From the NCBI RefSeq assembly GCF_017498065.1, contig NZ_JAGDFX010000007.1, positions 1 to 64,000 on the forward strand: a DNA stretch of 64,000 nt. Direction: 5' to 3'. Of the stretch, positions 20,328 to 36,366 are shown in pieces (position 1 is the first letter of the stretch; every line of letters starts with the position of its first letter). The position numbers and the translations under genes were made by a program. The notes below the pieces were generated by a model. It was given only the letters and a program-made list of their open reading frames with translations. It was not told where the DNA came from and searched no databases. The DNA is from Oceanisphaera pacifica (GTDB taxonomy: Bacteria > Pseudomonadota > Gammaproteobacteria > Enterobacterales > Aeromonadaceae).

Positions 20328-20334
20328 CCAGAGA

Positions 20335-20362
20335 TTGCATTCATTATTATCTTTGCTACACT
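20335..20362 (+). promoter_or_regulatory. ffs promoter
   Basis: TTGCAT (20335-20340) and TACACT (20357-20362) with a 16-base spacer, placing the start of transcription at about 20370, close to the RNA's first paired bases. Confidence 0.6.
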
Positions 20363-20375
20363 GGCGTTTCTTCGA

Positions 20376-20490
20376 TGGTGGCCCCGTTGGTCCTCTCGCA
20401 TCGGAATCTTGTTTACTAGGTCAGGCCCGGAAGGGAGCAGCCAAAGCAGGAATCTTCGAGTGCCGGGATGCGGCTGGCGGTGGTCACCTC
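20376..20490 (+). ncRNA. ffs: 4.5S RNA (signal recognition particle RNA, small bacterial type)
   Basis: About 115 bases with the universally conserved apical core: GGTCAGGCCCGGAAGGGAGC and AGCAGCCAAAGCAG, flanked by long paired arms (GTTGGTCC, GCCGGGATGCGGCTGGC). The outer ends GGTGGCC (20377) and GGTCACC (20482) pair. It binds Ffh and targets nascent membrane proteins to FtsY. Exact ends are uncertain by a few bases. A Tn7-like left end begins about 15 bases downstream, consistent with ffs serving as its attachment site. Confidence 0.93.
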
Positions 20491-20504
20491 CAATCTCAAA
20501 ATCT

Positions 20505-20571
20505 TGTTGCTTACACCATAAGCTGACAAATCTTTAGTAATACCTGACATAAATTGCACCATAAGCTGACA
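20505..20571 (+). mobile_element. left end of Tn7-like transposon with TnsB-type binding repeats
   Basis: The end begins TGTTGC at 20505. CACCATAAGCTGACA occurs twice, at 20514-20528 and 20557-20571, 43 bases apart, with a degenerate TACCTGACATAAA between. Tn7-like elements end in TGT...ACA and carry several TnsB sites; the TGTTG start and CCATAA core resemble ends of the Tn6677 (type I-F3 CAST) group from memory. No matching inverted copy was found downstream in the window. Confidence 0.7.
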
Positions 20572-20602
20572 TAGTCTACCTTTGTAGTAACAAAACTACA
20601 AA
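20554..20602 (+). promoter_or_regulatory. putative tnsABC promoter and palindromic operator
   Basis: TTGCAC (20554-20559) and TACCTT (20577-20582) are 17 bases apart. The -35 overlaps the second TnsB-type site. The -10 runs into the palindrome TTTGTAGT-aacaaa-ACTACAAA (20581-20602), just upstream of tnsA. This suggests control both by TnsB and by another repressor. Confidence 0.5.
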
Positions 20603-20613
20603 AAGGTGGTTTT

Positions 20614-21240
20614 ATGTATCGGCGCAGATTAAAACATTCTCCAGTAAAAAATCTCTTTCGCTTCGCAAGCGGTAAGACTCAATCTGTCCTTACGGTTGAA
20701 TCGGCTCTTGAGTTTGATACCTGCTTCCATCTTGAGTACTCCCCAGAAATAACCTCCTTTGAAGCTCAGCCAGAAGGCTTTTACTACAGCTTTGAGGGTA
20801 AGCGTTGCCCGTACACCCCTGACTTTAAAGTTCATCATCAAAAAGATGGAGAACAGTTTATTGAAGTCAAACCCCTATCTAAAGTACTAAAAGAAGATTT
20901 TCGTACACGTTTTCAAGCTAAGCAGTATGCTGCACGTGATGCAGGGATTACCTTGCTATTGGTAACTGAACGTCAAATTCGTGTTTATCCGATTTTAAAC
21001 AATCTGAAACTGCTACACCGTTACTCAGGTTTTCAATCAATCACTGAGGTACACCTTCGTATACTCGAATTTGTTGAAAGGCATGGTATGACTTCTCTGC
21101 TGAATTTAGCACGATCAACGGGAATAAAAGAGGGTGAGCTACTAAGTACTACACTATCGCTAATTGCTACAAACAGACTTGCTACCAACCTACTTGAACA
21201 GAGTTTCTGCCTTGACTCTGAAGTGTGGGAGGCTATATGA
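20614..21240 (+). CDS. tnsA: TnsA-like endonuclease of a Tn7-like transposon
   Basis: Cuts the 5' ends of the element so that, with TnsB, it moves by cut-and-paste. The 208-residue protein has a PD-(D/E)XK core: an N-terminal Glu in SALEFDTCFHLE (33 or 41), Asp70 in YTPDF and Glu84-Val-Lys86 in FIEVKPLSK. Residues about 125-208 form a helical C-terminal domain. It is shorter than Tn7 TnsA (273), as in many Tn7-like relatives. AAAAAGGTGG precedes the ATG. It overlaps tnsB by four bases (ATGA). AT-rich composition contrasts with the flanking chromosome. Confidence 0.88.
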   Translation: MYRRRLKHSPVKNLFRFASGKTQSVLTVESALEFDTCFHLEYSPEITSFEAQPEGFYYSFEGKRCPYTPDFKVHHQKDGEQFIEVKPLSKVLKEDFRTRFQAKQYAARDAGITLLLVTERQIRVYPILNNLKLLHRYSGFQSITEVHLRILEFVERHGMTSLLNLARSTGIKEGELLSTTLSLIATNRLATNLLEQSFCLDSEVWEAI

Positions 21241-23111
21241 AAGGGGTTAATTTGACTCAGGGGTTCTTCTATGATGAATATCCTCTCGATGAAGCCATAT
21301 CTGTTACTGATAATCAGCCACTTGAGCCTGTAAAGGTCTCTAGAGATTTAGCAAGCTACCCTGCGGAAGTACAAGCTGAAGTTAATAGGCGGCTGGCTTA
21401 TTTGACATGGGTTGAAAAGCGGCTGGACGGTGGTTGGACGCAAGCGCGTCTGGAACCTTTATTAGATCAGGCCTCAATAGAGCTAGGCATTGAGCCTCCA
21501 AACTGGAGGACTCTAGTAAGATGGCGAACAAAATACTCCAACTCTGAGTTTGCGCTTTCTTCACTGATCCCTAAGTATGGTAATAAAGGCAATCGGATAA
21601 CAAAAAGTGATAGCAGGGCAGAAAAATTTTATGAGCAAGCGCTTAAACGCTTTTTGGTACAAGAGAGGCCTTCAGTTGCTGCTGTTTATCGTTTTTACGC
21701 GGATTCTATACGAATAGCCAACCAAGAGCTGATTGAAAGGCCAATAAAGGCGTTATCTTATAGTGGGTTCTATAATCGAATCAAAATGTTACCGGCTTAT
21801 GATGTTACGGTAGCTCGTCATGGAAAATTTATCGCCGACACAAAGTTTAATATGATTGGCACTCATATACCTCCTAAACGCGTACTTGAGCGAGTGGAAA
21901 TTGACCACACTCCACTCGACCTGATCCTGCTTGATGACGAACTTGATATCCCATTAGGAAGACCATGCCTTACTGTTCTTATAGATAGCTACAGTCATTG
22001 TATTACTGGATTTTATATCGGGTTTGAGGGGCCGAGCTTTAATTCAGTACGAAAAGCTTTGCTTAACGCTATTAAACCAAAGGCTTATGTTCATAAAAAA
22101 TATCCGGCTATCGAGAATGACTGGCTATGTAGCGGTAAGCCAGAAACGCTAGTTGTGGATAATGGAGCTGAGTTTTGGAGCCAAAGCTTGGAGTTAGTAT
22201 GTCTAGAGCTAGGTATTAATGTGCAATACAATCCAGTACGAAAACCGTGGCTAAAGCCGATGATAGAGCGACTATTTGGCAGTATTAACAGTAGTCTATT
22301 GACCAATATACCAGGTAAGACGTTTTCTAATCTTCTTAAAAAGGAAGAATATCATCCTAATAAAGACGCCATTATGCACTTTTCAACTTTTGTTGAGCAT
22401 TTTCATCAGTGGGTTATTGACCTATACCATCAGAATGCTGATTCGAGAAAGCGCTATATCCCTGCATTATCTTGGAAGAAAGGCTATGAGTATTTACCTC
22501 CGGCTCAGGTTGCTGATGAAGATCTCTGTAAGTTAGAAGTTATCATTGGTTTAGCTAGTCAGCGACAACTTAGACGTGGTGGCATTCATATTTACAATTT
22601 GCGCTACGACTCTGAAGAGCTATCTTCATATCGTAAAAACTATGCGTATGAAAAGCAATCGCCAAAGGTTCTGATTAAAATCAATCCTGATGATATTTCA
22701 TCCATCTATGTATTTTTAGATAAACTAAAAAAGTACCTTCAAGTCCCCTGTGTAGACCGCGTTGGTTACACACATGAGTTAAGTCTCCAACAACACTTCA
22801 TTAACTGCCGTTTGCATAAAAGCTTTATTGATAGTGCATTGGACTTAGACAGTTTGGCTAGAGTTAGAATGAAGCTACATGAACGCATTAAACAAGAAGT
22901 GGCAGAGTTAAAGAGTATAGGTACAAAAAGAAAGTCGCAGTCAAGCATGTCGCGATTGGCTAAGCACCAACAAGTAGGCAGTGGAGAAAAAGGCACTGTG
23001 ATTGAGCAACCCCTACCTAGAGAACTGTCAAAGCCGAAGAGTGAAAAAGATAATTTAATCAACCAAATAGATGAGTGGGATGATTATGTCTCAGAGTTTG
23101 ATGGTTACTGA
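21237..23111 (+). CDS. tnsB: TnsB-like DDE transposase
   Basis: Retroviral-integrase-fold transposase that binds element ends and joins 3' ends to the target. The 624-residue protein (start 21237, GGGAGG upstream, ATGA overlap with tnsA) shows the DDE triad at about Asp223 (VEIDHTPLD), Asp308 (LVVDNGAEF) and Glu344 (WLKPMIERLFG). N-terminal helix-turn-helix domains precede it, and the basic C-terminal tail (about 560-624) is where TnsC contact is expected. The triad is intact. A GTG at 21225 in the same frame is less likely. Confidence 0.9.
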   Translation: MKGVNLTQGFFYDEYPLDEAISVTDNQPLEPVKVSRDLASYPAEVQAEVNRRLAYLTWVEKRLDGGWTQARLEPLLDQASIELGIEPPNWRTLVRWRTKYSNSEFALSSLIPKYGNKGNRITKSDSRAEKFYEQALKRFLVQERPSVAAVYRFYADSIRIANQELIERPIKALSYSGFYNRIKMLPAYDVTVARHGKFIADTKFNMIGTHIPPKRVLERVEIDHTPLDLILLDDELDIPLGRPCLTVLIDSYSHCITGFYIGFEGPSFNSVRKALLNAIKPKAYVHKKYPAIENDWLCSGKPETLVVDNGAEFWSQSLELVCLELGINVQYNPVRKPWLKPMIERLFGSINSSLLTNIPGKTFSNLLKKEEYHPNKDAIMHFSTFVEHFHQWVIDLYHQNADSRKRYIPALSWKKGYEYLPPAQVADEDLCKLEVIIGLASQRQLRRGGIHIYNLRYDSEELSSYRKNYAYEKQSPKVLIKINPDDISSIYVFLDKLKKYLQVPCVDRVGYTHELSLQQHFINCRLHKSFIDSALDLDSLARVRMKLHERIKQEVAELKSIGTKRKSQSSMSRLAKHQQVGSGEKGTVIEQPLPRELSKPKSEKDNLINQIDEWDDYVSEFDGY

Positions 23112-24126
23112 ACGAATCTTATCACCGGAACAGGAAAGTCGGCTACGTCGCTTTGTATGTTGTTTCGTCGAGCAGCCCATAGTGAGTGAAATTTATGATG
23201 ATTTTAATAGGTTACGTTACAACCATCGTTTGGGAGGTGAGCAGCAATGTATGTTGATCACAGGCGACACGGGTTGTGGTAAGTCACTGCTAGTTAAAAA
23301 CTATCAGCGGCAGTTTTCAGGGGTAGAGGAGATGTGTGGCGGATATCCGTATCGGCCTTTACTTATCAGCCGTATTCCTAGCAAACCTACACTGAGTGCC
23401 ACTATCATCGAGCTGCTTAAAGATCTCGGTCAAGCTAGTAGTATCTATCGTAAGGGAAGAAGCTCTGATCTTAGCCTCACTGAAGCCTTAATTAAGTGCT
23501 TGGTTCGTTGTAAAACAGAACTTATTATTATTGATGAATTTCAGGAGTTGGTAGAATTCAAAAGTGGTGAGAAGCGTAGTGAGATAGCTAATCGCCTTAA
23601 GCTGATCAGTGAAAAAGCACGAGTTCCTATCGTTTTGGTCGGCATGCCTTGGGCTGAAAAAATTACAGAAGATCCACAGTGGGCATCGCGGTTAATGACT
23701 CGAAGACTACTCCCTTACTTCAAACTCTCAGAAGACCCAGAAAACTTTATCCGCTTTCTAATGGGGCTCGCTAAAAAAATGCCTTTTACAGAGCTTCCAA
23801 AGCTAGAAAAACAGCATACAGTCTTTGCACTTTTTTCTGCTTGTGGCGGTTGCTTGCGCACTCTGAAGCACTTGCTTGATGAAGCAGTTAAACAGGCGCT
23901 ATTGGCTGATGCTCAGACGCTGACGAGCGAACATCTTAGTAAATCTTTCTCGTTGTTTGAACCCACCAAGGTGAACCCGTTTTTGCAGAAGTTAGAAGAA
24001 CTGCAAGCGAGAGAGGTAAAACACTATTCCCGTTATAACAGTGGCGCCTCTTATGCTGAAGATGCATTGATCCCGACCCAATTTGGGGAGCGAGTACCAA
24101 TTTCTATGTTGATTAAAAAATCTTAG
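23071..24126 (+). CDS. tnsC: TnsC/TniB-like AAA+ ATPase
   Basis: ATP-dependent regulator that links a target selector to the TnsAB transposase. The up-to-351-residue protein has Walker A GDTGCGKS (Lys71) and Walker B LIIIDEFQE (Asp155, Glu156), typical of the TniB/AAA_22 group. The frame overlaps the 3' end of tnsB; starts at 23071, 23080, 23086 and 23101 are all possible and none has a strong ribosome site. No TniQ/TnsD or TnsE gene follows, so the protein that would normally recruit this ATPase to a target is not in sight. Confidence 0.88.
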   Translation: MSGMIMSQSLMVTERILSPEQESRLRRFVCCFVEQPIVSEIYDDFNRLRYNHRLGGEQQCMLITGDTGCGKSLLVKNYQRQFSGVEEMCGGYPYRPLLISRIPSKPTLSATIIELLKDLGQASSIYRKGRSSDLSLTEALIKCLVRCKTELIIIDEFQELVEFKSGEKRSEIANRLKLISEKARVPIVLVGMPWAEKITEDPQWASRLMTRRLLPYFKLSEDPENFIRFLMGLAKKMPFTELPKLEKQHTVFALFSACGGCLRTLKHLLDEAVKQALLADAQTLTSEHLSKSFSLFEPTKVNPFLQKLEELQAREVKHYSRYNSGASYAEDALIPTQFGERVPISMLIKKS

Positions 24127-24137
24127 CACTTCTTAAG

Positions 24138-24186
24138 CTAAGGAATCCTTAGTACACTTATCTTGGCTATACTAAGAGAATCTTAG
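24138..24186 (+). promoter_or_regulatory. paired palindromic operators flanking the xre promoter
   Basis: Two 15-base palindromes of the form CTAAG-N5-CTTAG lie at 24138-24152 (CTAAGGAATCCTTAG, perfect) and 24172-24186 (CTAAGAGAATCTTAG). A TATACT -10 at 24168-24173 sits between them, overlapping the second. The spacing (34 bases, about three helical turns) suits cooperative dimer binding by the Xre protein encoded just downstream. Confidence 0.7.
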
Positions 24187-24210
24187 CTATCTATCTAAAC
24201 GGGATAGCTT

Positions 24211-24543
24211 ATGTATTCAACACTCCCAAAGCGGCTTAAGGCAGCACGTCTAAAAAATCAGCTGACACAACGTCAGCTGGGTGTTCACCTTGGCATGGAT
24301 GAAAATACAGCGAGTGCTCGGATGAATCAGTATGAAAAAGGTAAGCATTCCCCCGACTACCAAACTATGCAACGATTGGCTAAAGTGCTAGATGTTCCTG
24401 TAGCTTATTTCTACTGTGAAGATGACCTTTTGGCTGAGCTACTCTGTGCTATTGCTAAGAAACCGCGAGCAGAGCAAGAAAAGTTATTAAAACTTCTTTC
24501 TGATGATAACAATTTGCTACCTAGCGGTAACTGCTCTGGCTAA
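24211..24543 (+). CDS. Xre-family transcriptional regulator
   Basis: A 110-residue protein with a classic helix-turn-helix in residues 5-60 (LKAARLKNQLTQRQLGVHLGMDENTASARMNQYEKG) and a helical C-terminal part. It lies 85 bases after tnsC and has two palindromic operators at its own promoter, so autorepression is likely. Xre regulators are also found in I-F3 CRISPR-associated transposons, where they control guide expression; here there is no CRISPR. It could instead time expression of the neighbouring restriction system. Composition is AT-rich like tnsABC. Confidence 0.8.
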   Translation: MYSTLPKRLKAARLKNQLTQRQLGVHLGMDENTASARMNQYEKGKHSPDYQTMQRLAKVLDVPVAYFYCEDDLLAELLCAIAKKPRAEQEKLLKLLSDDNNLLPSGNCSG

Positions 24544-24701
24544 TTGCTCAAGCTTCTCTTTGTCGATAGACTCACATCAAACTTATCCAATTGAATTTGC
24601 AATTTCATATTTAGCAAGCACACCTCATTAAATTGCTCTGCCTTTGGCTACAACAGTATTTATTTGCTACAGCTGTGGCTGAACTTTAAATGGAAACCCC
24701 A

Positions 24702-26426
24702 ATGACCCAACGCGTAACGCTGCAACAGCTTGAATCCTTCTTATGGGAAACTGCCGATATTTTGCGCGGCAATATGGATGCCTCTGAATTTAAAGATTAC
24801 ATCTTTGGCATGTTGTTCTTAAAGCGACTGTCTGACGCCTTTGATGAAGCCAAAGAAGGCGTAGTGGCCTATTACCTTGGTAACGGAAAAACCCAAGCGC
24901 AGGCGCAAGAATTGGCAGATGATGAAGACGAATACGATAGCACTTTTTACATTCCGCCCATTGCTCGCTGGCATGCCATTAAAGACTTAAAGCACGACAT
25001 AGGTGCCGAGCTGAATAAGGCGATGGAAGCCATAGAAGAGCACAACGACGCGCTAGAAGGCGTGTTGGTGTCTATCGACTTTAACATTAAGAATAAACTG
25101 TCCGATAAAAAGCTGCGCGACTTACTCAGCCACTTTAGCCGCTACCGCTTGCGCAATAGCGACTTTGAACGGCCCGACTTGCTGGGCACGGCGTATGAAT
25201 ACTTAATTAAGATGTTCGCAGATAGCGCGGGCAAAAAAGGCGGTGAATTTTATACGCCGTCAGAAGTAGTCGAGCTGTTAGTGTGCTTGCTTAAACCCCA
25301 AGCTGGGATGCGCATTTACGATCCCACCGTGGGCTCGGGCGGTATGTTAGTGCAAACCCGTAACTACCTTGCCAGCAATGGGGGCAACTCGGCTAACCTG
25401 TCACTGTTTGGCCAAGAAATGAACCTTAATACCTGGGCCATTTGTAAGATGAATATGTTCTTACACGGGGTATACAGCGCCAATATTCAAAAGGGCGACA
25501 CCTTAGGCAGTCCGCAGCACACCCAAGACGGTGAGCTGATGACCTTTGACCGCGTCATTGCCAATCCGCCCTTTAGTTTAAAGAAGTGGGGCAAAGAAGA
25601 AGCCGATAACGATGCTTACGGTCGCTTCCCATACGGCACACCACCTAAAGACTCCGGTGATTTGGCCTTTGTGCAACACATGATCGCCAGCTTGAACGAC
25701 GAGGGCGTAATGGGCGTGGTCATGCCCCATGGCGTACTGTTCCGTGGTTCTAGCGAGAAGGCCATTCGCCAAGGCATCTTGCAAGATGACTTATTAGAAG
25801 CGGTAATCGGCTTACCCGCCGGTTTATTCTACGGCACCGGCATTCCGGCAAGCTTACTGATCATCAATAAAAACAAACGTGCGGCACGCTTGCGCAAAGT
25901 GTTGTTTATTAATGCCGAATTAGAATACGAAGAAGGCAAAAACCAAAACAAACTACGCCCACAAGACATTGCCAAAATCGTACAAACCTTCGACGACTAC
26001 GCAGAAGTTAAGCGCTACTCCAAAGTGGTGACCATAGCGGAAATTGCCGAAAACGATTACAACCTTAATATCCGCCGTTACGCCGACACCAGCCCGCCAC
26101 CCGAGATCTTCGACGTGCGCGCCATTCTGCACGGTGGCATTCCGGTGCGTGAAGTCGAAAGTGAATATATCCGAGAAGAAATACTGCAAGACTTTGATGT
26201 CAGCACGGTTTTTTCACGCAGAGACAGTGACTATTACGGGTTTAAAGCTGAAATCGACAGTAAAGAAAAGATTCGTCAACTGGTGGGTGCAGAGAACACC
26301 GCCGTTATCGAACAACTAGAGCGTTGGTGGGATAAGTACCGTATGTCGCTGAAAGAGCTCGATGTGCAGGTAGCTGAAGCTGAGGCAATGATGAAGGGCT
26401 TTTTGGCGGAGCTGGGGTATGAGTAA
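24702..26426 (+). CDS. hsdM: type I restriction-modification system methyltransferase subunit
   Basis: N6-adenine DNA methyltransferase subunit, acting with HsdS to protect host DNA. The protein is 574 residues from the ATG at 24702 (578 from 24690; neither has a strong ribosome site). N-terminal helical HsdM_N domain, then [14 protein letters not shown] motif [10 protein letters not shown] and catalytic NPPF. It starts 160 bases after xre; that gap holds no recognised signal. Base composition shifts here to that of the core chromosome, so it may have a different history from tnsABC. Overlaps hsdS by eight bases. Confidence 0.93.
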
Positions 26427-27735
26427 TACGATCCCAGAGGGATGGGCTATTAATCAGCTCGGAAAACTTACTGATGTGCGCTCAAGTAATGTAGACAAGA
26501 AGACCGATGATACAGAAATACCTGTTCGTCTATGTAATTACATGGATGTATACCGCAACAACAGCATTACTTCTGAAGTTGAGTTTATGGAAGCTAGTGC
26601 GAAGCAGAGGGAGATTGATCGGTTCACTTTAGAAAAAGGTGATGTGATTATTACCAAGGACTCTGAAACCCCTGATGATATTGCTGTACCATCTTATGTT
26701 AGTGAAAGCCTTACCGGAGTTGTTTGTGGTTATCATTTAACATTATTACGACCACACAGTAATCTAGCTAACGGGCAGTTTTTATCACACTTGTTTCAAT
26801 TGCAAAGTGTTCAGCATTATTTTTATCTTCTTGCGAACGGAACGACACGCTTTGGTTTAACTGCAGACGCCATAAATGCAGCACCGTTATTAATACCACC
26901 ACTCCCCGAGCAACAAAAAATCGCCAGCATACTGTCATCGGCCGATGAGGTGATTGAAAAAACACGCGCCCAGATCGACAAGCTGAAAGACCTTAAAACC
27001 GGCATGATGCAAGAGCTGCTCACCAAAGGCATCGGTCATACCGAGTTCAAAGACTCGCCAGTGGGGCGGATACCTAGTAACTGGGAAGTTGGTGCAATTG
27101 ATTCTTTTGGAGTCGATATACTCGACGGCGATCGTGGTAAGGAATATCCAAAGGAGAAGGATTTTTATCCCTTTGAGCACTGCCTGTTTTTATCAGCAAA
27201 AAATGTCACAAAGAAAGGTTTTGCTTTTACTACTCTGTCTTTTATTACCAAAGAAAAAGATGAGTTACTTCGTAAAGGAAAGCTAACTCGTGGCGACATT
27301 GTTATCACCACTAGAGGTACTGTAGGTAATATAGCTTTTTATAATGATGAGGCTCCTTTCGACCATATTCGTATAAATTCAGGCATGGCGATTATTAGAA
27401 ATAAGTCAGAAGCGTTGGACTCTCAATTTCTCCATCTGCTAATGAACTCGCCAATGGTGAGCGAACAGGTTGAGCTGTTAGCTTTTGGTAGTGCACAGCC
27501 ACAGCTGACTATAGGTATTATTAAAGGTTTAAATATTCCCAAACCCTGCATTGATGAGCAAAAAGCAATTGCATCTGCCGTTTCTTCTGTAACGAAAAGG
27601 CTACAATTGGCGACTAAAAAATTAGCCTTATTGGAGTCAGCTAAAAAAGCCCTCATGCAAGATCTGCTCACCGGCAAGGTGCGCGTCAATGTGGCTAACG
27701 TAAGCACTGCTCAACAGGAGGCGGTGGCTGACTAA
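26419..27735 (+). CDS. hsdS: type I restriction-modification system specificity subunit
   Basis: Determines the bipartite DNA recognition sequence of the HsdMSR complex. The 438 residues have two target-recognition domains (about 1-150 and 210-385), separated by a conserved helical spacer around [13 protein letters not shown]...[16 protein letters not shown] and closed by a similar C-terminal helix ending [15 protein letters not shown]. The TRDs are AT-richer than the conserved spacers, as usual for swapped segments. The recognised sequence cannot be predicted here. Its stop codon lies inside a 12-base-pair hairpin. Confidence 0.93.
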
Positions 27736-27760
27736 GTTGCGCACGACAGCGCAACTTAGT
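27731..27760 (+). promoter_or_regulatory. hairpin between hsdS and hsdR
   Basis: ACTAAGTTGCGC (27731-27742) and GCGCAACTTAGT (27749-27760) form a perfect 12-pair stem with loop ACGACA. It contains the hsdS stop codon and ends 11 bases before the hsdR ribosome site. No T run follows, so partial attenuation, RNA processing or translational uncoupling of hsdR is more likely than termination. Confidence 0.65.
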
Positions 27761-27778
27761 CTTCCTGCAGGAGTAACT

Positions 27779-30700
27779 ATGTTTCAGGATGAAGAACATA
27801 AAGTAGAGCAACCGGCCATAGAACAGCTAATTAAGCTTGGTTGGTCGTACAAGCCGGGGGCGAGTCTGGCACCGTTGGCTGCTGTTTCTGGCGCCCAAAA
27901 AGCTGAGCGTGATTACTACCGCGATGTGGTACTGACGGGTCGCCTTGAGGCTGCTTTGCGTAAGCTGAATCCGTGGATTAGCGAGGAAAACTTACGCAAG
28001 GTAATGCGTGAAATTACCCATCCCAACCATGCGGCACTCATGGAGTATAACCATGACATCTACCAGAAGCTGGTTAACTATCTGTCGGTAGAGCAAGACT
28101 TAGGCAAGGGCCGCAAAAGCCATACCGTTAACATTATTGACTTTGATAACCCGCTCAACAACGACTTTTTGTGTACCAGCCAGTTTAAAATTGAAGGCGT
28201 TAACCAGAATATCATTCCCGATATTATCTGCTTCGTGAACGGTCTGCCGCTGGCGGTGATTGAGTGCAAGTCCCCGTATATTGCCGATGCCATGAGTGAG
28301 GGCATTAACCAGTTACGCCGTTATGCCAATTTACGTTACCCTGATACTCACGAAGGTGCACAAAAGCTGTTTTGGTATAACCAGCTGATGATCAGTACCT
28401 GCCGCGACCAAGCTAAAGTGGGCACCATTAGCTCAAGCTCTCAGTATTATAGCGACTGGAAAGACGCCCATCTCTATAGCGATGCCGAGATCCGCGCCAT
28501 GGTGAAAAGCGAGACTGAAGCTGAACGCCAAGTATCAGAAATGCCGCTGCACCATTATGCAAACCAAGCTCAAGCTGTTACCGAGGTCACCGCCCAGCAA
28601 CGGTTGTTAGCAGGCATGTTTGATTGCGCGAGCTTTCTCGACCTTATTCGCAACTTTGTAATCTTTGAACCGGTTGAAGGGCGACTTATTAAAAAGATCG
28701 CCCGCTATCAGCAGTATCGCGCCGTAAACAAAGTGATCCATCGTCTTAAAACCGGAGCTGATCGTAAAGCCAAATCGGGCGTAGTGTGGCATACCCAAGG
28801 CTCGGGGAAATCGTTAACCATGGTGATGCTGGCGAGCAAGATGCGCCGAGATGCACAGTTGCAGCAATATAAGCTGGTGTTTATCACCGACCGCACCCAG
28901 CTAGACTCACAGCTGTCTAATACCTTTCGCGCCGCCCAAAGCGAGACCATATATAACGCGGGATCTGTTGCCGAGCTTAAAACCCTGCTGGCGCGAGACT
29001 CCTCCGACATTGTGACCGCCATGGTGCAAAAGTTTCAGGAGGCAGAAGCCGAGGGTGACTTTAGTAATTTGAACCCCAGTGACAAAATCATTGTCATGGC
29101 GGATGAAGCCCACCGTACCCAGTTTGGTAACTTAGCCACCACCATTAATGCCGCCTTACCGAATGCGCCCAAAATTGGTTTTACCGGTACGCCCTTGCTC
29201 AAATCACAAAAGATGAGTGATGCCTTTGGTGGCTATATTGATGAATACAAGATCAACGAAGCGGTAGCAGACGGCGCCACGGTGCGCATTATCTATGAAG
29301 GCCGCCAAGTACAAACCGAAGTGGTGGGCAAGCCGCTGGATGCGCTATTTGATGAGTATTTTAAAGGCTACAGCGACGACGAAAAGCGTGAGATAAAAAA
29401 GAAATACGGCGTAGAGCGGGCAATACGCGAAGCCCCCATGCGCATTCGCTGGGTATGTATCGACTTGCTTAAACATTATCGAGAGCACATACAACCTAAC
29501 GGCTTAAAAGCCATGATAGTGGTGGGCAGCCGTTATGCCGCCGTGCGATTTAAAGATGCACTGGATGCCTTAGAAGCCCCCCAGTCTGAGGTAATTATCT
29601 CGGGCAGCCATAACGACGAGCCGATGTTTGCGCCTTACACCGACGGCAAGCAACATAAACAGGCGATCAGTAATTTTGCTAAGCCGTTGGGCGTGGGTAA
29701 AGACCAAGACCCCACCGCTTTTTTGATTGTAAAAGACATGCTGCTAACCGGCTTTGATGCGCCCATTGCACAAGTAATGTATATCGACCGCAGTTTAAAG
29801 GGCCACACCCTGATGCAAGCCATTGCGCGGGTAAACCGCACCTACTCAAACGAGCACGGTACTAAGCAAGCAGGCTTTGTAGTGGACTATCACGGCTTGT
29901 CGGATCACCTAGCCAGCGCGCTTGATGACTACAGCAGTGAAGACGTAGCGGGCACGTATCACTCGTTAAAAGATGAGATCCCTAAACTTGAAGCCTGCCA
30001 CACGCGCGTTGCTCAAGTATTCAAAGGGCTGAAGGGCTGTGATGTTGATGACTATGTACTGTTTTTAAAAGATGAGGTTACTCGCCAACAGTTTGAGCAG
30101 GCCTTTAAGCGCTTTGCTAAACAAATGGATGTAGTACTGCCCGATGCGGCGGCCAAGCCGTTTACCGCAGATCTGAGATTGTGGGGTAAGGTACAAAACG
30201 GTACGCGGCTTAAGTATCGAGAGCCCGGCATGGATCTTAAAGAGATAGGCGCCAAGGTACGCAACTTAGTCGAAGAGCATATTCTTAGCACAGGTGTAGA
30301 CCCTAAAATTCAGCCCATTGATTTGATGGCTGCAAACTTTAGCCAAACCCTGCAGCAAATTAAATCACCCGAGTCACAAGCCTCAGAGATTGAAAGTGCC
30401 ATTAAGCATCACTTAACCGTCAACCTAGATGAAGACCCTGAATACTACCGGTCGTTAAGCTTGCGCCTGCAAGACATTATTGAAAAGACCAACGGCAAAT
30501 GGGACGAGCAAGTTCAGTTGTTAATGAGCTTTCGTAGCCAAATCAACACAGAGCGCACTCAGGCCGCCAGCGACTTAGGCTTAAGCGATACCGAGTTCGC
30601 CTTTTACAATATCCTAATGGCAGAAGTGGTGAAATATTTAGGAGAAGGTGACGGCGGTGAAGACACGATAAGCGAAGCCGTGCACGACGAGATTAAAGCC

Positions 30701-30904
30701 AGCAGTCAAAGCTTAGTGAGTATGTTTGATGAAGCCACACAAATTGTTGATTTTTTCGCTAAGCCCGACGAAGTAAAACGCATGAAGAAAGCCATTAAGC
30801 GCACCATCATAGGCTGTTCGTTTAGTGACAAGTCGATTGTGAACATGGTGCAAGACCGTTTTATGGAGCTGGCCGAAACTCGCTTTGGCGCTAACAGTCA
30901 GTGA
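27779..30904 (+). CDS. hsdR: type I restriction enzyme motor/nuclease subunit
   Basis: ATP-dependent translocase and endonuclease subunit. The start at 27779 has a GGAG site six bases upstream and gives 1041 residues; the frame extends to 27737. The N-terminal PD-(D/E)XK nuclease shows IIPDIICF...AVIECKSP (about residues 145-170), then SF2 helicase motifs TQGSGKSLTM (Walker A), MADEAHRTQ (DEAH) and GFTGTPL, plus the AIARVNR motif VI. All key residues appear intact, so the system is probably functional. The hairpin before it may lower its synthesis relative to hsdM and hsdS. Confidence 0.95.
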   Translation: MFQDEEHKVEQPAIEQLIKLGWSYKPGASLAPLAAVSGAQKAERDYYRDVVLTGRLEAALRKLNPWISEENLRKVMREITHPNHAALMEYNHDIYQKLVNYLSVEQDLGKGRKSHTVNIIDFDNPLNNDFLCTSQFKIEGVNQNIIPDIICFVNGLPLAVIECKSPYIADAMSEGINQLRRYANLRYPDTHEGAQKLFWYNQLMISTCRDQAKVGTISSSSQYYSDWKDAHLYSDAEIRAMVKSETEAERQVSEMPLHHYANQAQAVTEVTAQQRLLAGMFDCASFLDLIRNFVIFEPVEGRLIKKIARYQQYRAVNKVIHRLKTGADRKAKSGVVWHTQGSGKSLTMVMLASKMRRDAQLQQYKLVFITDRTQLDSQLSNTFRAAQSETIYNAGSVAELKTLLARDSSDIVTAMVQKFQEAEAEGDFSNLNPSDKIIVMADEAHRTQFGNLATTINAALPNAPKIGFTGTPLLKSQKMSDAFGGYIDEYKINEAVADGATVRIIYEGRQVQTEVVGKPLDALFDEYFKGYSDDEKREIKKKYGVERAIREAPMRIRWVCIDLLKHYREHIQPNGLKAMIVVGSRYAAVRFKDALDALEAPQSEVIISGSHNDEPMFAPYTDGKQHKQAISNFAKPLGVGKDQDPTAFLIVKDMLLTGFDAPIAQVMYIDRSLKGHTLMQAIARVNRTYSNEHGTKQAGFVVDYHGLSDHLASALDDYSSEDVAGTYHSLKDEIPKLEACHTRVAQVFKGLKGCDVDDYVLFLKDEVTRQQFEQAFKRFAKQMDVVLPDAAAKPFTADLRLWGKVQNGTRLKYREPGMDLKEIGAKVRNLVEEHILSTGVDPKIQPIDLMAANFSQTLQQIKSPESQASEIESAIKHHLTVNLDEDPEYYRSLSLRLQDIIEKTNGKWDEQVQLLMSFRSQINTERTQAASDLGLSDTEFAFYNILMAEVVKYLGEGDGGEDTISEAVHDEIKASSQSLVSMFDEATQIVDFFAKPDEVKRMKKAIKRTIIGCSFSDKSIVNMVQDRFMELAETRFGANSQ

Positions 30905-30911
30905 TGCGTAA

Positions 30912-31649
30912 ATGAAAATAAATAAGCTTAATGAAGCCGACTTAACCAAACCAGAGTATCGCGACGGCAATGGCTTTATTGTTGAAGTGATCCGCACCGC
31001 GAGGCGCAAGTCTGCCGACATACGAGTAGAAGAGGGCGCAGTATCAGTGGTGGTGCCAGAAGCCACCACAGTTGAACGCATCGACCAACTGCTACTGGCT
31101 AAGCGCGAGTGGATTATCGAAAAGCTGACTCGGCAACGAGAAGTGGCACCTATCAGCAATAAACAGTTTGTGTCCGGTGAGGCGCTCCCTTACTTAGGCC
31201 GTAATTATCGGCTTAAAGTCACCACCGGCGTCTTTCAACCGGTAAAGCTACTGCAAGGCCGGTTAGTGCTACAAGTGCCAGAAGGCCGCCAACAACCGCA
31301 CATGATCCGCAATGCCCTCGTACGCTGGTATAAACATCAGGCTGGGGTAAAGATCCGCCAAAAGGTACGCCGTTACGCGCCACTAGTGGGGGTAGAGCCA
31401 GTCAGCGTCACCATCAAAAGCTTTAAGTCTCGTTGGGGGAGTTGCACTGCCGATGGCAAGCTGGAATTTAATTGGCGGATTTTGCTGGCACCCAACCGCA
31501 TGGTGGATTACGTGGTTGCTCATGAGCTGTGCCATTTGATCCACCACGACCACTCACCCGCCTTCTGGCGAGAGCTAGCCCGCGTCATGCCCGATTACCA
31601 AGAGTGTCGGGAATGGTTGAAGCTGAACTCGGGGAAGTTACAGGTTTAG
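30912..31649 (+). CDS. YgjP-like (M48-type) zinc metallopeptidase
   Basis: A 245-residue protein of the DUF45/YgjP family. The gluzincin motif VVAHELCHL gives His204, Glu205 and His208, and HHDHSPAFW supplies a further histidine (probably His214). Immediately upstream is the family hallmark SRWGSCTADGKLEFNWRI. It begins seven bases after hsdR and shares its direction. Such peptidases commonly trail hsdR in type I loci; the substrate is unknown, with control of HsdR or of the defence response a reasonable guess. Confidence 0.85.
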   Translation: MKINKLNEADLTKPEYRDGNGFIVEVIRTARRKSADIRVEEGAVSVVVPEATTVERIDQLLLAKREWIIEKLTRQREVAPISNKQFVSGEALPYLGRNYRLKVTTGVFQPVKLLQGRLVLQVPEGRQQPHMIRNALVRWYKHQAGVKIRQKVRRYAPLVGVEPVSVTIKSFKSRWGSCTADGKLEFNWRILLAPNRMVDYVVAHELCHLIHHDHSPAFWRELARVMPDYQECREWLKLNSGKLQV

Positions 31650-31747
31650 CTAAGTGGGGTATACAAGTTATCTCTATCTGACTTAGGGTAATGCTCGCTT
31701 ACACTGAGTGCTAGAGCCCAGCCATTGATTATTAACGGGAGAATATA

Positions 31748-32659
31748 ATGAACACTTATCCAATTGGTACACCAGGCTTGCCTTGGGGTGAGGCTGAGCG
31801 TGCTCAGTGGCGTGCCCAGCAAACACAGCAGCGCAGTTATCATAGTGAAGTGTTAAGCGCCATTGAGCACTTAGCAACAGATTTTGATGTGGTGCAATAC
31901 GGTGAGCTTAATGATGAGCAACAGGTGTTGCCTTTAATGGCGCTATACAGTCGCCCTTGGCAGCCTGCGTTGCCGGTTGTGCTAGTTACCGGCGGTGTGC
32001 ATGGCTATGAAACCAGTGGGGTACAAGGCGCGTTGCAGTTTTTGGCACAAGATGCCCAGCGTTATACTAATAAAGTGAATCTGCTAGTGGTGCCCTGTGT
32101 TAGCCCCTGGGCCTATGAGCGTATTCACCGTTGGAATGCCGAGGCCATTGACCCTAACCGCTCATTTTTTGAACCCAGCCCTGCTGCAGAGTCTGCGGCA
32201 CTGATGCGCCTGATTGCCCCCATACGTGATCAGGTGATGCTGCATATTGATTTGCACGAAACCACGGATACCGATGAAAGCGAATATCGCCCAGCACTGG
32301 CTGCACGCGATGGCGTTCCCTTTGTGCCGGGCAGCATTCCGGATGGGTTTTACTTAGTGGATGATACTGAGCAACCGCAGCCTGAGTTTCAAGCTGCCAT
32401 TATTCGTGCGGTAGAAAAAGTTACCCATATTGCGCCTGCGGATGAAAAGGGCGAGATTATTGGCTCGGCGGTGGTGGCGAAAGGCGTTATTCAGTATCCG
32501 CTGACAAAACTGGGCTTGTGTGCAGGGTTAACCAACGCACGTTATAAAACCACCACAGAGGTGTATCCCGACAGCCCCAGCGCCACCCCCGAGCAATGTA
32601 ATGCTGCTCAGGTTAGTGCCATATGTGCTGCCATTGAATACCTGTTATCTGATGCTTAA
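31748..32659 (+). CDS. M14/AstE-AspA-type zinc hydrolase
   Basis: A 303-residue protein of the succinylglutamate desuccinylase/aspartoacylase branch of M14 carboxypeptidases. Zinc ligands are visible as His85 and Glu88 in GGVHGYET and a histidine in HIDLHETTD (166 or 170); DPNRSF (135-140) is the substrate arginine region. Relatives remove an acyl group or a terminal amino acid; the exact substrate cannot be read. ACGGGAG precedes the ATG. It probably marks the return to chromosome after the accessory region, though no transposon right end was found before it. Confidence 0.75.
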   Translation: MNTYPIGTPGLPWGEAERAQWRAQQTQQRSYHSEVLSAIEHLATDFDVVQYGELNDEQQVLPLMALYSRPWQPALPVVLVTGGVHGYETSGVQGALQFLAQDAQRYTNKVNLLVVPCVSPWAYERIHRWNAEAIDPNRSFFEPSPAAESAALMRLIAPIRDQVMLHIDLHETTDTDESEYRPALAARDGVPFVPGSIPDGFYLVDDTEQPQPEFQAAIIRAVEKVTHIAPADEKGEIIGSAVVAKGVIQYPLTKLGLCAGLTNARYKTTTEVYPDSPSATPEQCNAAQVSAICAAIEYLLSDA

Positions 32660-32675
32660 GCTCTTTTTTATGGCA

Positions 32676-32858
32676 CTACACAGGGGGCGACCAGCTTAAT
32701 AGTGCCCAGCGTTGCAGTTCGCCCCCTTGTTGGGCATAAGCAGGATCACGGTGATACCAAGTGGTTAAGTCTTGTGTCTCTTGTGTGCTTAATGGGCCAA
32801 AACGTTCGGCTACTTTGTTGTTGAAGCTCACCCAGCTAAAGCAAGGTGATTCTTGTCG
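32676..32858 (-). pseudogene. C-terminal remnant of an unrecognised protein
   Basis: On the minus strand a frame without start reads SWVSFNNKVAERFGPLS, continues QDLTTWYHRDPAYAQQGG and ends LQRWALLSWSPPV with a TAG at 32676-32678. The composition is protein-like, but an in-frame stop at 32859-32861 cuts the N-terminal side. It lies next to the IS200/IS605 end, so loss of the front half may be linked to that element. I do not recognise the family. Confidence 0.4.
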
Positions 32859-32879
32859 TCATCGGTTTCTGCATAGTGA

Positions 32880-32960
32880 TATTAAATCACGTTAGTCTTC
32901 TGAAGCCTCTTACAAGCGTTTTATGTGTCGGTACTTCCTACCGCCACATGCTCTTTAAGC
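32880..32960 (-). ncRNA. probable omega RNA region of TnpB
   Basis: In this family the guide (omega) RNA comes from the 3' end of tnpB and runs into the element's end. The imperfect hairpin at 32924-32948 falls in the expected place. The boundary with the guide segment is not determined. Confidence 0.4.
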
Positions 32961-34052
32961 AGCTATCCTTAATCCTTCTTTGTGGATATTGATAGCTGCA
33001 TTATGATCTCTATCGTGCTCTGCTCCGCAAGAGCACGACCACGCTCTAATGGCTAATGTCCATTTTCCAGAATACAAAGCCCCACAAACGTTGCACATCT
33101 TGCTCGATGGGAACCATTGATTAACAGCAGATATTTTCCTGCCGTACCAATCGGCCTTATATTCTAATTGCCTTAAAATCTCACCAAAATTAGCATCATG
33201 AAGATGCTTCGCCAGCTTACGATTCTTAACCATATTTTTTACTCGTAACGATTCAACGCTTATCACTTGGTTTTCGTTTATCAGCGCTTTGGTCATTTTA
33301 TGGGTAACGTCTTTACGAGAACTTGCTATCTTTTCGTGGATTTTAGCAATAATGAGCTTTTGCTTATTAAAATTATTCGAGCCTTTTTTCTTCTTGGCTA
33401 ACTGACGCTGCGCTTTGGCCAGCTTCTTAGCGTACTTCTTCGTCATTCTGGGGTTATTAAAGCGCTGGCCATCAGAGCACACGGCTAAGTCAGTAATGCC
33501 CACATCTACTCCAATGGTTTTACTGACAGTAGGGAGCGTTTGAGTGTCTTCTTTCACTAAAATAGACACAAAATACTGACCTGCTTTATTCTTTGAAATG
33601 GTGAGAGAGCTGGGCTTGCCTGTAAACACGCGCGACCACCTGATTTTCAAAGGCTGTTTCATTTTAGCAAGCGTAATGCGCTTATGCTCTGCATCCCACT
33701 TAAAGGCGTTGCTCATGTAGGTAGCGGACTGTCTGGCGTGTTTATTTTTAAACTTAGGATAGCCAAATCCAGACGTAAAGAAGGCTTTAAATCCTTTATC
33801 TAAATGCTTTAAGGCTTGCTGCAATGGCACACTTGATACGTCTTTTAACCAAACGTAATCGGGGTTTTTCTTCATTAAAGTGAGGTTTTTGCTCCAGTCG
33901 TTATACTGGGTTTTATTACCTAACTCATACTGTTCTTTGGAAAAGCTAAGGGCAGAATTATACGCAAAACGAACACAGCCAAAGGTCTGAGCTAACAAAG
34001 TAGCTTGCTCTTTGTTTGGGTAGAGCCTGTATTTGTATGCGACTAATTTCAC
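32955..34052 (-). CDS. tnpB: TnpB RNA-guided nuclease of IS200/IS605 element
   Basis: Transposon-encoded nuclease, related to the ancestor of Cas12, that uses an omega RNA to cut empty donor sites. The 365 residues start with MKLVAYKYRLYPNKEQ. RuvC residues are intact: Asp183 (GVDVGITDLA), Glu267 (ISVESLR) and Asp349 (EHDRDHNAA). A zinc finger is formed by Cys320, Cys323, Cys340 and Cys342. Its start is 70 bases from the tnpA start on the opposite strand. Likely active. Confidence 0.92.
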   Translation of the reverse strand: MKLVAYKYRLYPNKEQATLLAQTFGCVRFAYNSALSFSKEQYELGNKTQYNDWSKNLTLMKKNPDYVWLKDVSSVPLQQALKHLDKGFKAFFTSGFGYPKFKNKHARQSATYMSNAFKWDAEHKRITLAKMKQPLKIRWSRVFTGKPSSLTISKNKAGQYFVSILVKEDTQTLPTVSKTIGVDVGITDLAVCSDGQRFNNPRMTKKYAKKLAKAQRQLAKKKKGSNNFNKQKLIIAKIHEKIASSRKDVTHKMTKALINENQVISVESLRVKNMVKNRKLAKHLHDANFGEILRQLEYKADWYGRKISAVNQWFPSSKMCNVCGALYSGKWTLAIRAWSCSCGAEHDRDHNAAINIHKEGLRIAA

Positions 34053-34121
34053 TTGGTCTTCCTCTTTGCTGTACTTTACTATACAGACCTTAACTTACTA
34101 ATCAATAGTTGGTCCAATCTC

Positions 34122-34535
34122 ATGAATGGGGAGTTTTCTGTCAGAAAGGGCAGGCACTGCGTAAGTGCATTACATGCGCACCTAGTGTTTGTCACAAAAT
34201 ACCGAGCAAAAGTGTTTAATGGCGCTATTTTGGAGAGGTTAGAGGCAATATTAAGAGAGGTATGTGTCGATTTTGAGGTTGAGCTGACCGAGTTTAACGG
34301 GGAGGAAGATCATATTCACTTATTAATTGAGTACCCTCCTAAAGTTCAAATTAGCAAGCTAATTAATTCTCTAAAGGGCGTTAGTTCACGACTTTTACGA
34401 AAGGAATATTCCGCTATTCATCAATATTTATGGAAGGGTGCACTGTGGTCTCCCAGCTACTTCGCTGGCTCTTGCAAAGGCGCTTCACTTGAAATTATTG
34501 CTAACTATATTGAGCGGCAAAACAGACCTAGTTAG
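34122..34535 (+). CDS. tnpA: IS200/IS605 transposase TnpA (HUH tyrosine)
   Basis: Single-strand DNA transposase of 137 residues. The HUH motif is seen in EDHIHLLIEYP and the catalytic tyrosine as Tyr129 in NYIERQN. The start at 34122 (MNGEFSVRKGRHCV) matches relatives that begin with RKGRHCVS; the frame stays open to 34053 but the extra residues are not family-like. No obvious ribosome site. Divergent from tnpB, the IS605/IS608 layout. Confidence 0.9.
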   Translation: MNGEFSVRKGRHCVSALHAHLVFVTKYRAKVFNGAILERLEAILREVCVDFEVELTEFNGEEDHIHLLIEYPPKVQISKLINSLKGVSSRLLRKEYSAIHQYLWKGALWSPSYFAGSCKGASLEIIANYIERQNRPS

Positions 34536-34871
34536 TATTACGCCTTACATCCCCGACCTGAAGGACGGGGTTTTTCGGCTAAAATTGATAAACCTGACAC
34601 CAAAAGTGTTTATCTTTGTTATCGCCATTGTAAAGCTCGCGAGTCAGTATGGTGAGCGGTACTGTGAGCTAAATCAAATAGCTTGCAACTTATTACACTT
34701 TTCGCAATTAAGAGTTGTTGCTAAGATCTTATTTTCAATGTTCAATTCTGCCCATAACTTACCTATAATACCGGCATTAATGACGCTAAAAGGCAGCATT
34801 TTTGCTTGCCGTAATCACCCTATAATTAAATGTAACCACATAGTGGCTGTAAACGGCTAAACCATTAGAGA

Positions 34872-35540
34872 ATGCCCATGAGGATGCAAGGTAAAATATT
34901 AAATTGGCATGATGATAAAGGGTTTGGCTTTGTTGACCCCCTAACGGGCGGCCAACGTGCCTTTGTGCACATTAAATCTTTTATCTCTCGTGCACGAAGG
35001 CCGGTCAACGGCGATGTTATTCATTATGAGCTGGTACAAGAAAGCCATCATCGTTATAAAGCCGAATGTATTCAGTTTGCGGATGACGTGCAAACCGCTA
35101 AACCACAGCGTTATCTTAGCAACAATCATCATGCCCAAAAAACACACTCAAAGCGTACGCTAGAAGCGCTACTCACTGGACTTTTTTGTGCATTTATACT
35201 GATATTTTCACTGATAGGTAGCTTACCTCTTATATTAGCGGGCGCCTTTATTGTGATGAGCACAGTGACGTTTGTGGCCTACGGTATTGATAAATCGGCC
35301 GCTGAAAGTGGCCGCTGGCGTACCAAAGAAAGTACCTTACATGTGTTTGCTTTTTTGTGTGGTTGGCCAGGGGCTTTTGTGGCACAACGTTTATTACGGC
35401 ATAAATCGAGTAAACACGAGTTTCAGTCTTTTTATAAAGTGACAGTGGCACTAAATGTGGCCGGTATTGTGTTTTTATTTACCGAAACCGGTCGCACATT
35501 TTTAAATCAAATCGTGCTACCTTGGCTTGCCAACGCATAA
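34872..35540 (+). CDS. cold-shock domain and DUF1294 membrane protein
   Basis: A 222-residue two-part protein. The N-terminal 65 residues form a cold-shock (OB) domain with RNA-binding KGFGFV and AFVHI motifs; residues about 100-222 hold DUF1294 with three or four membrane segments. The fusion is recurrent in gammaproteobacteria, but no function is established. The start may be codon 1, 3 or 5 (three ATGs). Its 3' end overlaps the open frame, but not the chosen start, of the next gene. Confidence 0.8.
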   Translation: MPMRMQGKILNWHDDKGFGFVDPLTGGQRAFVHIKSFISRARRPVNGDVIHYELVQESHHRYKAECIQFADDVQTAKPQRYLSNNHHAQKTHSKRTLEALLTGLFCAFILIFSLIGSLPLILAGAFIVMSTVTFVAYGIDKSAAESGRWRTKESTLHVFAFLCGWPGAFVAQRLLRHKSSKHEFQSFYKVTVALNVAGIVFLFTETGRTFLNQIVLPWLANA

Positions 35541-35623
35541 GTCAGCCACCCCTTGGTTTAATAGAGGCAGGCGCGTTTTGTGATTGTTCATCCAACGACT
35601 GTGTGAGCTTGGTAGGAGAAATA

Positions 35624-36226
35624 ATGCGATTAGTAAAAAGGAGTTATTTTTTCTCCGTAATCAATAGGGTTATACAACAGGCAAAAATGCCTTGGTTAGC
35701 GGTTGCTGTGGTGATGCTAAGTGGTTGCGCCAGCATGACAGAGCAAGAATGCCTAACCGCAAATTGGGAAGACAAAGGCAACAGTGATGGGCGGGCCGGC
35801 TATGGACTCACGCGACTAGATAGTCACTATAAAGCCTGTGCAAATGTTGGCGTAACACCCAATATGCAGCAATATAAACAAGGACGAGAGCAGGGGCTTA
35901 AGCATTATTGCACGCCAGAAAATGGCTTCTTACAAGGGCAACAGGGGCAGGCTTATCGCCAAGTTTGCCCCACCGATTTGGCACCGACTTTTTTACGCGC
36001 CTTTACCGATGGCAAGCAGCTGTATGATGCCAAACAGCGCATAACAGACGTTGCAAACGATATTAAAGAGATAGAGCACAGCTTAAGCAACGAGTCTGAT
36101 AAAGCGCAACGCCGATATTTACGACAAAAGCTTCGCGGTATGAACAGAGAACTACAACGGGTTCGACACGACAGGCGTTATCTAGAAAGTCGACTAGAGC
36201 GCGCTCGTTATTATCAGCATCAATAA
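35624..36226 (+). CDS. DUF2799 lipoprotein
   Basis: A 200-residue exported lipoprotein. The lipobox VMLSGCAS places the lipidated cysteine near residue 35 after a long basic leader; TAGGAG supports the start at 35624, and a downstream ATG at 35687 would give a short leader lacking basic residues. The mature part contains the DUF2799 core (CLTANWEDKGNSDGRAGYG...) and a charged C-terminal coiled coil (about 150-195). Function unknown; envelope localisation inferred. Confidence 0.8.
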   Translation: MRLVKRSYFFSVINRVIQQAKMPWLAVAVVMLSGCASMTEQECLTANWEDKGNSDGRAGYGLTRLDSHYKACANVGVTPNMQQYKQGREQGLKHYCTPENGFLQGQQGQAYRQVCPTDLAPTFLRAFTDGKQLYDAKQRITDVANDIKEIEHSLSNESDKAQRRYLRQKLRGMNRELQRVRHDRRYLESRLERARYYQHQ

Positions 36227-36366
36227 CGATAATGGCCAGCTTTGCACGAAATTTTAGATATTGTTAACAGAGCTGAGCCATGCCACAAGCAAAATTAACG
36301 CTGATGCTTGCTTAGCTATCTTGCCCCTCTTAACATGAGACTTACTCTCATCTTGGAGGTTTAATT

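Follow-up and report, generated by a model that had tools for sequence, protein, structure and literature searches.

Passages of a review (PMC11406308) place Tn6900/AsCAST among the type I-F3b CRISPR-associated transposons (CASTs; CRISPR denoting clustered regularly interspaced short palindromic repeats), name the genes ffs and rsmJ as I-F3b sites, and apply the designations RtaC and RtbC to the Xre proteins of I-F3a and I-F3b elements, respectively. Parts of a survey (PMC8649781) give the insertion distance of CASTs as 50 to 60 bp and report tnsD/tniQ in 73 to 97% of Tn7-like elements per clade, so that elements of this kind without tniQ are, on that evidence, already on record. The present analysis concerns a stretch of 64,000 nucleotides from Oceanisphaera pacifica (here called the window), i.e., the first 64 kb of the 197 kb contig NZ_JAGDFX010000007.1 in a 3.1 Mb draft genome of 37 contigs (G000) whose completeness is given as 100, which carries a tnsA-tnsB-tnsC-xre gene set directly past ffs. 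Very probably, this cluster represents the left part of a type I-F3b CAST that homed to ffs, lost its right part at a later stage and can no longer be excised as a unit, a reading that is based on the kinship of its proteins, on its site, and on the failure to find TniQ, Cas7, Cas8 or a second end. Two plasmid-borne elements serve for comparison, that of Aeromonas salmonicida pS44-1 (NZ_CP022176.1), which we take to be Tn6900/AsCAST, and that of P. toruni.

The tnsABC-xre module and its site

The features of the module and its insertion site, in window coordinates, are as follows:

20385..20482, + strand: ffs, the 4.5S/signal recognition particle RNA gene and attachment-site gene of the element (full-length match to Rfam RF00169, 70.7 bits)
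20421..20452, + strand: putative ffs protospacer, deduced from the ffs-like spacer of the element in G402, a genome of the same genus (24 of 32 bases match)
20500..20504, + strand: AATCT, presumably the left of the two target-site duplicates, as suggested by TTTTT in G402
20505..20573, + strand: transposon left end, with a TGTTG terminus (20505) and three TnsB-type sites (20513-20530, 20534-20551 and 20556-20573)
20614..21240, + strand: tnsA (PF08722; product 55% identical to pS44-1 TnsA)
21225..23111, + strand: tnsB (PF09299; product 57% identical to P. toruni TnsB and 51% to pS44-1 TnsB; best solved chain PseTnsAB)
23071..24126, + strand: tnsC (PF05621 TniB and PF13401; product 59% identical to that of pS44-1; start codon unsure)
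24138..24152, + strand: putative xre operator 1, CTAAGGAATCCTTAG, an exact CTAAGN5CTTAG
24172..24186, + strand: putative xre operator 2, CTAAGAGAATCTTAG, an exact CTAAGN5CTTAG
24211..24543, + strand: xre, a controller of the C.Csp231I class (RtbC type; product 65-71% identical to Xre of two I-F3 CASTs)

A previous reading of the sequence alone had identified and delimited tnsA, tnsB, tnsC and xre correctly: each of the four genes is open and has a match to the Pfam families expected of it (for rve in TnsB the score, 30.4 bits, lies just below the cut-off of 32.6), and the Tns proteins align end to end with those of three relatives and retain the conserved acidic and Walker-type motifs, which we assume to be catalytic. 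The tnsB gene starts with GTG, an ATG being available at 21237. Twenty-two plasmid records match window DNA, the best five of which bear tnsA-tnsB-tnsC-xre sets (Aeromonas, Photobacterium). The pS44-1 element resembles the window in its tnsA-tnsB-tnsC-xre order, in protein identities of 51-65%, in its left-end sites and in two xre operators 34 bp apart, yet it differs in having both ends as well as tniQ-cas8/5-cas7-cas6, and in that no neighboring ffs was found. Its complete order is tnsA-tnsB-tnsC-xre-(one open reading frame, ORF)-tniQ-cas8/5-cas7-cas6, and the P. toruni plasmid exhibits a similar order with a COR-domain gene after xre; in these two records cas8/5 is annotated as hypothetical or Csy2, and the others as csy3/cas7 and cas6f. 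Identities of TnsA, TnsB, TnsC and Xre to the pS44-1 and P. toruni proteins range from 51 to 71%. Among solved structures, TnsB returned the PseTnsAB chain first and Tn6677 TnsB after it, while TnsC returned the TnsC of entry 30ga followed by Tn6677 TnsC, and for all three Tns proteins the nearest of the searched records and chains are I-F3 CAST proteins.

The TGTTG end that had been reported about 15 bases after ffs is real and begins at 20505, although it is located 22 bases past the Rfam end of the gene. The three TnsB-type sites behind it are direct repeats and score 25.1, 16.0 and 28.4 on a site profile trained on 15 sites, the window's three included, the runner-up anywhere in the 64 kb scoring 13.3. 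When as many as three mismatches are allowed, a 16-base pattern taken from the window occurs there just twice (with 0 and 1 mismatch), and two or more matches were also obtained in 14 of 100 shuffles; firmer support is provided by the presence of this same pattern at both ends of the pS44-1 and G402 elements. Comparison with 20 other aligned ffs loci (18 occupied and two element-free) located TGTTG or TGTCG 20 to 25 bases past ffs in twelve of the occupied loci and in neither of the element-free ones. The first transposon base lies 52 bp from the stretch of ffs that matches the G402 spacer, as compared to 55 bp in G402 itself, i.e., an insertion approximately 50 bp downstream of a protospacer in one of the two I-F3b site genes. 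No right copy of the AATCT duplication was found.

In the PDB, the Xre protein finds the Csp231I C protein (E 4.6e-23) and a chain that is uncharacterised (4o8b), and in PADLOC it matches Control_protein (E 2.8e-30); it is therefore a controller of the C.Csp231I class, as is characteristic of I-F3b elements; in line with this, part of a Shewanella survey (PMC12452197) describes I-F3b Xre proteins that cluster with C.Csp231I. The sequence CTAAGN5CTTAG is given as the C.Csp231I recognition sequence in a section of PMC4321490, and both exact copies in the window fall within the 84-base tnsC-xre gap. At one mismatch the window contains two extra copies, and a total of four matches was reached by 23 of 100 shuffles. 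The likeness to C.Csp231I thus extends from the protein match to an exact pair upstream of the gene, with a start-to-start spacing of 34 bp in the window as compared to 33 bp for C.Csp231I (18 bp between 15 bp sites, according to the same section of PMC4321490); the window gene differs in that it adjoins tnsABC, as in I-F3b CASTs. Operators were counted at all fetched loci that match xre or tniQ. Upstream of xre (31 loci, two of which are from one genome) a pair 34 bp apart is present in ten and a single copy in eight, and an operator copy precedes tniQ by 21 to 27 bp in nine of 18 tniQ loci. The window holds the xre pair only, which fits the loss of a tniQ operon without proving it.

Four genomes of the genus harbor a solitary xre gene directly past ffs (L057:3281-3733, L058:11543-11854, L059:2350-2652 and L060:2399-2701), whose products are 63-71% identical to the window's Xre. 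These loci have neither a tns match nor a left-end site, and an exact CTAAGN5CTTAG is missing upstream; they may be older relics of the same elements.

Searches for TniQ, Cas proteins, the array and a second end

The sequence-only reading had noted that TniQ and Cas genes are lacking, and this is borne out by tblastn searches, in which TniQ, Cas8, Cas7 and Cas6 of S44 and P. toruni had no match in the window (the cas6 search covered the window only). Its statement that no TniQ occurs in the following 11 kb relied on too short a distance, as tniQ of the related genome G030 is located 14 kb beyond tnsB, past the cargo; the statement nevertheless extends to the whole assembly, as no tniQ was found farther out. 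A TniQ profile built from six I-F3 proteins returned no match in G000 or in the other 22 genomes of the genus that were searched, while it detected both plasmid records and 16 of the 22 genomes whose TnsB is closest (at least 41% identity; L001-L021 and L024, G000 among them). Similarly, the Pfam TniQ model (PF06527), which represents the domain protein that a Tn7-like element with TnsD needs, returned nothing in G000, was positive in seven of eleven genomes or records, and matched none of 14 built-in control genomes. Cas7 was absent from G000 in the genome search and present in exactly those 16 of the 22 genomes that were positive for TniQ; distant Cas7 matches of 136 to 150 bits in five other genomes of the genus are taken as ordinary type I-F. 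Cas8 gave no match in G000 or G402, a weak one (37 bits) in G380, also of the genus, and strong ones in G030 and pS44-1. Genome searches of G000 therefore recovered none of the tniQ, cas8/5 and cas7 genes that are expected of an I-F3b element, and the repeat and spacer patterns of G402 have no counterpart in the window at up to three mismatches.

The second end was equally elusive. In the G000 genome the end-site pattern occurs at zero or one mismatch at the left end alone, and at two mismatches it has eight further matches as compared to seven in all for a reversed control, the pattern being blind to the degenerate middle site. Right of the left end, the window contains no right-end-oriented site scoring at least 10 (the weakest of the 15 known sites scores 15.8), and none of the 16 GCAACA or GCGACA places right of xre is followed by AATCT. 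Instead of the two ends with TnsB sites and the target-site duplication of an I-F3b element, only the left end was found. Because tniQ, cas7, cas8 and a second end are missing, the cluster was not classified as a functional CAST.

These searches also bear on the possibility that the element is complete and still mobile, its tniQ-cas module or right end being located at another position in the genome or falling into a gap of the assembly. The distance at which tniQ lies in G030, and its location on a different contig from tnsB in the drafts G061, G320, G103 and G176, would be in keeping with such an arrangement, but the assembly holds no match to the I-F3 TniQ profile, PF06527, Cas7 or Cas8, the matches of the end-site pattern away from the left end are close in number to those of its control, and genes of the native flank reappear on this contig from 35.5 kb onward. 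We consider a complete element very unlikely. Of the two options in the sequence-only reading, that of an eroded element is supported, and the corresponding sets of relatives mostly carry tniQ-cas8/5-cas7-cas6; a selector encoded elsewhere or of a new kind finds no support in an assembly in which two TniQ models, Cas7 and Cas8 are unmatched, while relatives do respond, and in which no second end was found.

Relatives and the ffs sites of the genus

The G030 element is an ffs-borne I-F3 element in a one-contig genome of the same order. It begins as the window does, with ffs, the left end, tnsABC, xre and then cargo; its cargo differs in being metal-efflux-like (by eye) and is followed by tniQ, the cas genes and array-like matches. 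In a 35-row TnsB tree, G030, P. toruni and G061, each of which bears tniQ, group weakly with the window. This tree omits G111 and G164 (fragments), L109 (short contig), L115, the more distant L025-L030 and weaker matches below, as well as G098, and also the loci L113 and L114, the latter two being taken as duplicates of G076 and G103. Loss of TniQ does not cluster on it, seven changes being needed for seven rows (at least six are forced), compared to a shuffled mean of 6.5.

Neither I-F3 TniQ nor Cas7 was found in six of the 22 closest genomes, i.e., G000, G076, G365, G229, G111 and G164. In G229 and G111 the tns genes are found where a contig ends, the completeness of G111 is 88%, and the gene of G164 is fragmented, so that the absence of TniQ from these three may reflect assembly or decay. 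The single-contig genome G365 possesses two other TniQ-domain genes near another TnsB-like gene; its own tnsABC set (G365:C1, L077:12530-16028) is open and of the I-F3 type, and it resembles that of the window in that the genome yielded no match to I-F3 TniQ or Cas7. The gene that precedes the tnsABC set of G076 is presumably rsmJ. Among twelve named genomes searched for TniQ, eleven gave some match, nine of these being to a full-length I-F3 TniQ; G414 contains broken TniQ pieces, G415 gave a weak match, and G405, whose contig ends just past tnsC, gave none.

Open tnsABC genes in three related genomes without I-F3 TniQ (G076, G365 and G229), together with the open tnsABC and xre genes of the window, could suggest a Tn7-like element with a new kind of selector, in which TniQ is replaced by, e.g., a subunit of the restriction system or the product of xre. 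However, this type of xre with paired operators is also found in tniQ-cas elements and thus represents a known controller, the G076 and G365 loci (L076 and L077) have no match to the Hsd proteins of the window, and without a second end there is no mobile unit, whatever chose the target; the probability of a new selector is next to negligible.

Within the genus, G402 carries a 7,972 bp insert past ffs (L054:2263-10234) that begins with TGTCGC, ends with GCGACA and is bordered by TTTTT on each side, while G371 represents an element-free ffs site. When the flanks of the G402 insert are joined and aligned with G371, the left side matches over 60 bases with one mismatch. On the right side two gaps (of 4 bases and 1 base) are needed and the first 20 bases contain several mismatches; beyond these the sequences align, though less well farther out. 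This comparison places the insertion just past ffs, as the sequence-only reading had proposed for the junction. The last spacer of the G402 array matches ffs at 24 of 32 positions in both G402 and the window; 1000 shuffled spacers reached at most 20 of 32 against ffs, and the best place outside ffs, in two stretches of relatives' DNA, reached 19. The insert carries CBASS-like cargo (cyclic-oligonucleotide-based antiphage signaling system; patatin and DncV-like proteins) and a short I-F type array, and in the fetched stretch no TnsB, TnsC, TniQ or Cas query found a match, just 20 residues of tnsA being recognizable. It is thus a two-ended element without machinery. Like the window, it occupies the site past ffs, has a similar left end, and its 20 tnsA residues are 95% identical; unlike the window, it retains both ends, the duplication, a CRISPR array and CBASS-like cargo, its tns genes being reduced to the start of tnsA. 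The G380 locus consists of a left end and 73 residues of tnsA, with unrelated DNA beyond.

Three states of ffs are therefore represented in one genus: element-free (G371), two-ended and gene-poor (G402), and one-ended and gene-bearing (the window), to which the window would add a case of the arrival and decay of an I-F3b CAST. It also illustrates that half a CAST, stripped of its selector genes, can look like a Tn7-like element without a selector.

Target immunity is known from Tn7, and the remnant could have been kept by selection if TnsB at the single left end, with TnsC, marked ffs as occupied, thereby barring incoming I-F3b elements and holding the restriction genes at the site. Frames that are open throughout and the traces of such elements at ffs in G402 and G380 are compatible with this scenario, for which there is no direct evidence, and a recent deletion explains the open frames equally well; we accord it a very slim chance.

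Probable cargo, right flank and presumed loss of the right part

The remainder of the locus comprises the following features:

24690..31649, + strand: type I restriction-modification genes hsdM, hsdS and hsdR and a YgjP-like gene, probably cargo
31650..35521, no strand assigned: rearranged stretch at the expected place of the lost right part, with an AstE-like gene, IS200/IS605-like ORFs and a DUF1294 gene
35522..37416, + strand: native right flank, with a DUF2799 gene and an lplA-like gene in the order found past ffs in G394

The best-scoring HsdR elsewhere in the genus is just 33% identical to that of the window, which favors the restriction genes being acquired DNA; they are probably cargo of the element, but may instead have been brought in by the rearrangement. 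Full-length relatives of the AstE-like gene (73-77%) were found in eight of the 22 other genomes of the genus, on another contig or at least 38 kb from ffs. In G394, which has no insert, the DUF2799 and lplA-like genes are located within 5 kb after ffs, and their window relatives (47% for DUF2799, at 35522; 74% for the lplA-like gene, at 36367) keep that order. Resumption of the native flank at 35.5 kb, together with the displaced AstE-like gene, the insertion-sequence-like ORFs and the DUF1294 gene, indicates that the right part was probably lost by rearrangement.

The ancestor of the cluster would have borne tniQ-cas8/5-cas7-cas6 and a guide RNA with an ffs-matching spacer. Its guide complex is presumed to have bound ffs and recruited TnsC, upon which TnsA and TnsB would have inserted the element approximately 50 bp downstream, with the left end at 20505. 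Xre, as an RtbC-type controller, would have bound the two operators before its own gene and, judging by some relatives, one before tniQ. A later deletion or rearrangement may then have taken everything right of the cargo, i.e., tniQ, the cas genes, the array, the right end and the adjoining native flank. This would have left the open tnsABC and xre genes and the type I restriction-modification genes as a remnant that cannot move, since it lacks both a second end and a selector.

Several observations weigh against the loss of the right part of an I-F3b CAST as set out here. No deletion junction was detected, and comparison of 31.6-35.7 kb with relatives matched the AstE-like gene alone, away from ffs. 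The four genes of the module are all open, which is not what long-dead genes would look like, and is most simply accounted for by a recent deletion. The missing module could conceivably be situated in a gap of the 37-contig draft, and the failure of the G402 array to match in G000 is a weak result, since this single 291-base query also missed pS44-1. Placement of the window TnsB in the tree is weak (support 80/83). Six of the 18 occupied ffs loci are without the terminus described above, four having TGATG at 9 or 10 bases and two (L114 and L086) being ambiguous. No exact operator was found upstream in 13 of the 31 xre loci (the four solitary genes of the genus, L078, L080, L081-L086 and L088), nor ahead of tniQ in nine of the 18 tniQ loci, pS44-1 included. 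Finally, the two bases preceding the protospacer in the window are GG, whereas CC is expected ahead of type I-F protospacers. Ambiguity of the I-F3 protospacer-adjacent motif is mentioned in a passage of the review (PMC11406308).

A search for a relative of the element in viral contigs produced two stretches that matched a pattern, neither of which was confirmed. Upstream of ffs, the permease gene (window 19233-20348) is open over 289 codons, compared to 575-589 in most relatives, and a stretch of approximately 760 bp that separates the permease gene from ffs in, for example, G398 is missing from the window. Beyond the native flank, at 37963-39202 of the window, a transposase-like ORF (by eye) of 365 codons lies between perfect 27 bp inverted repeats, beside an alkyl sulfatase gene.

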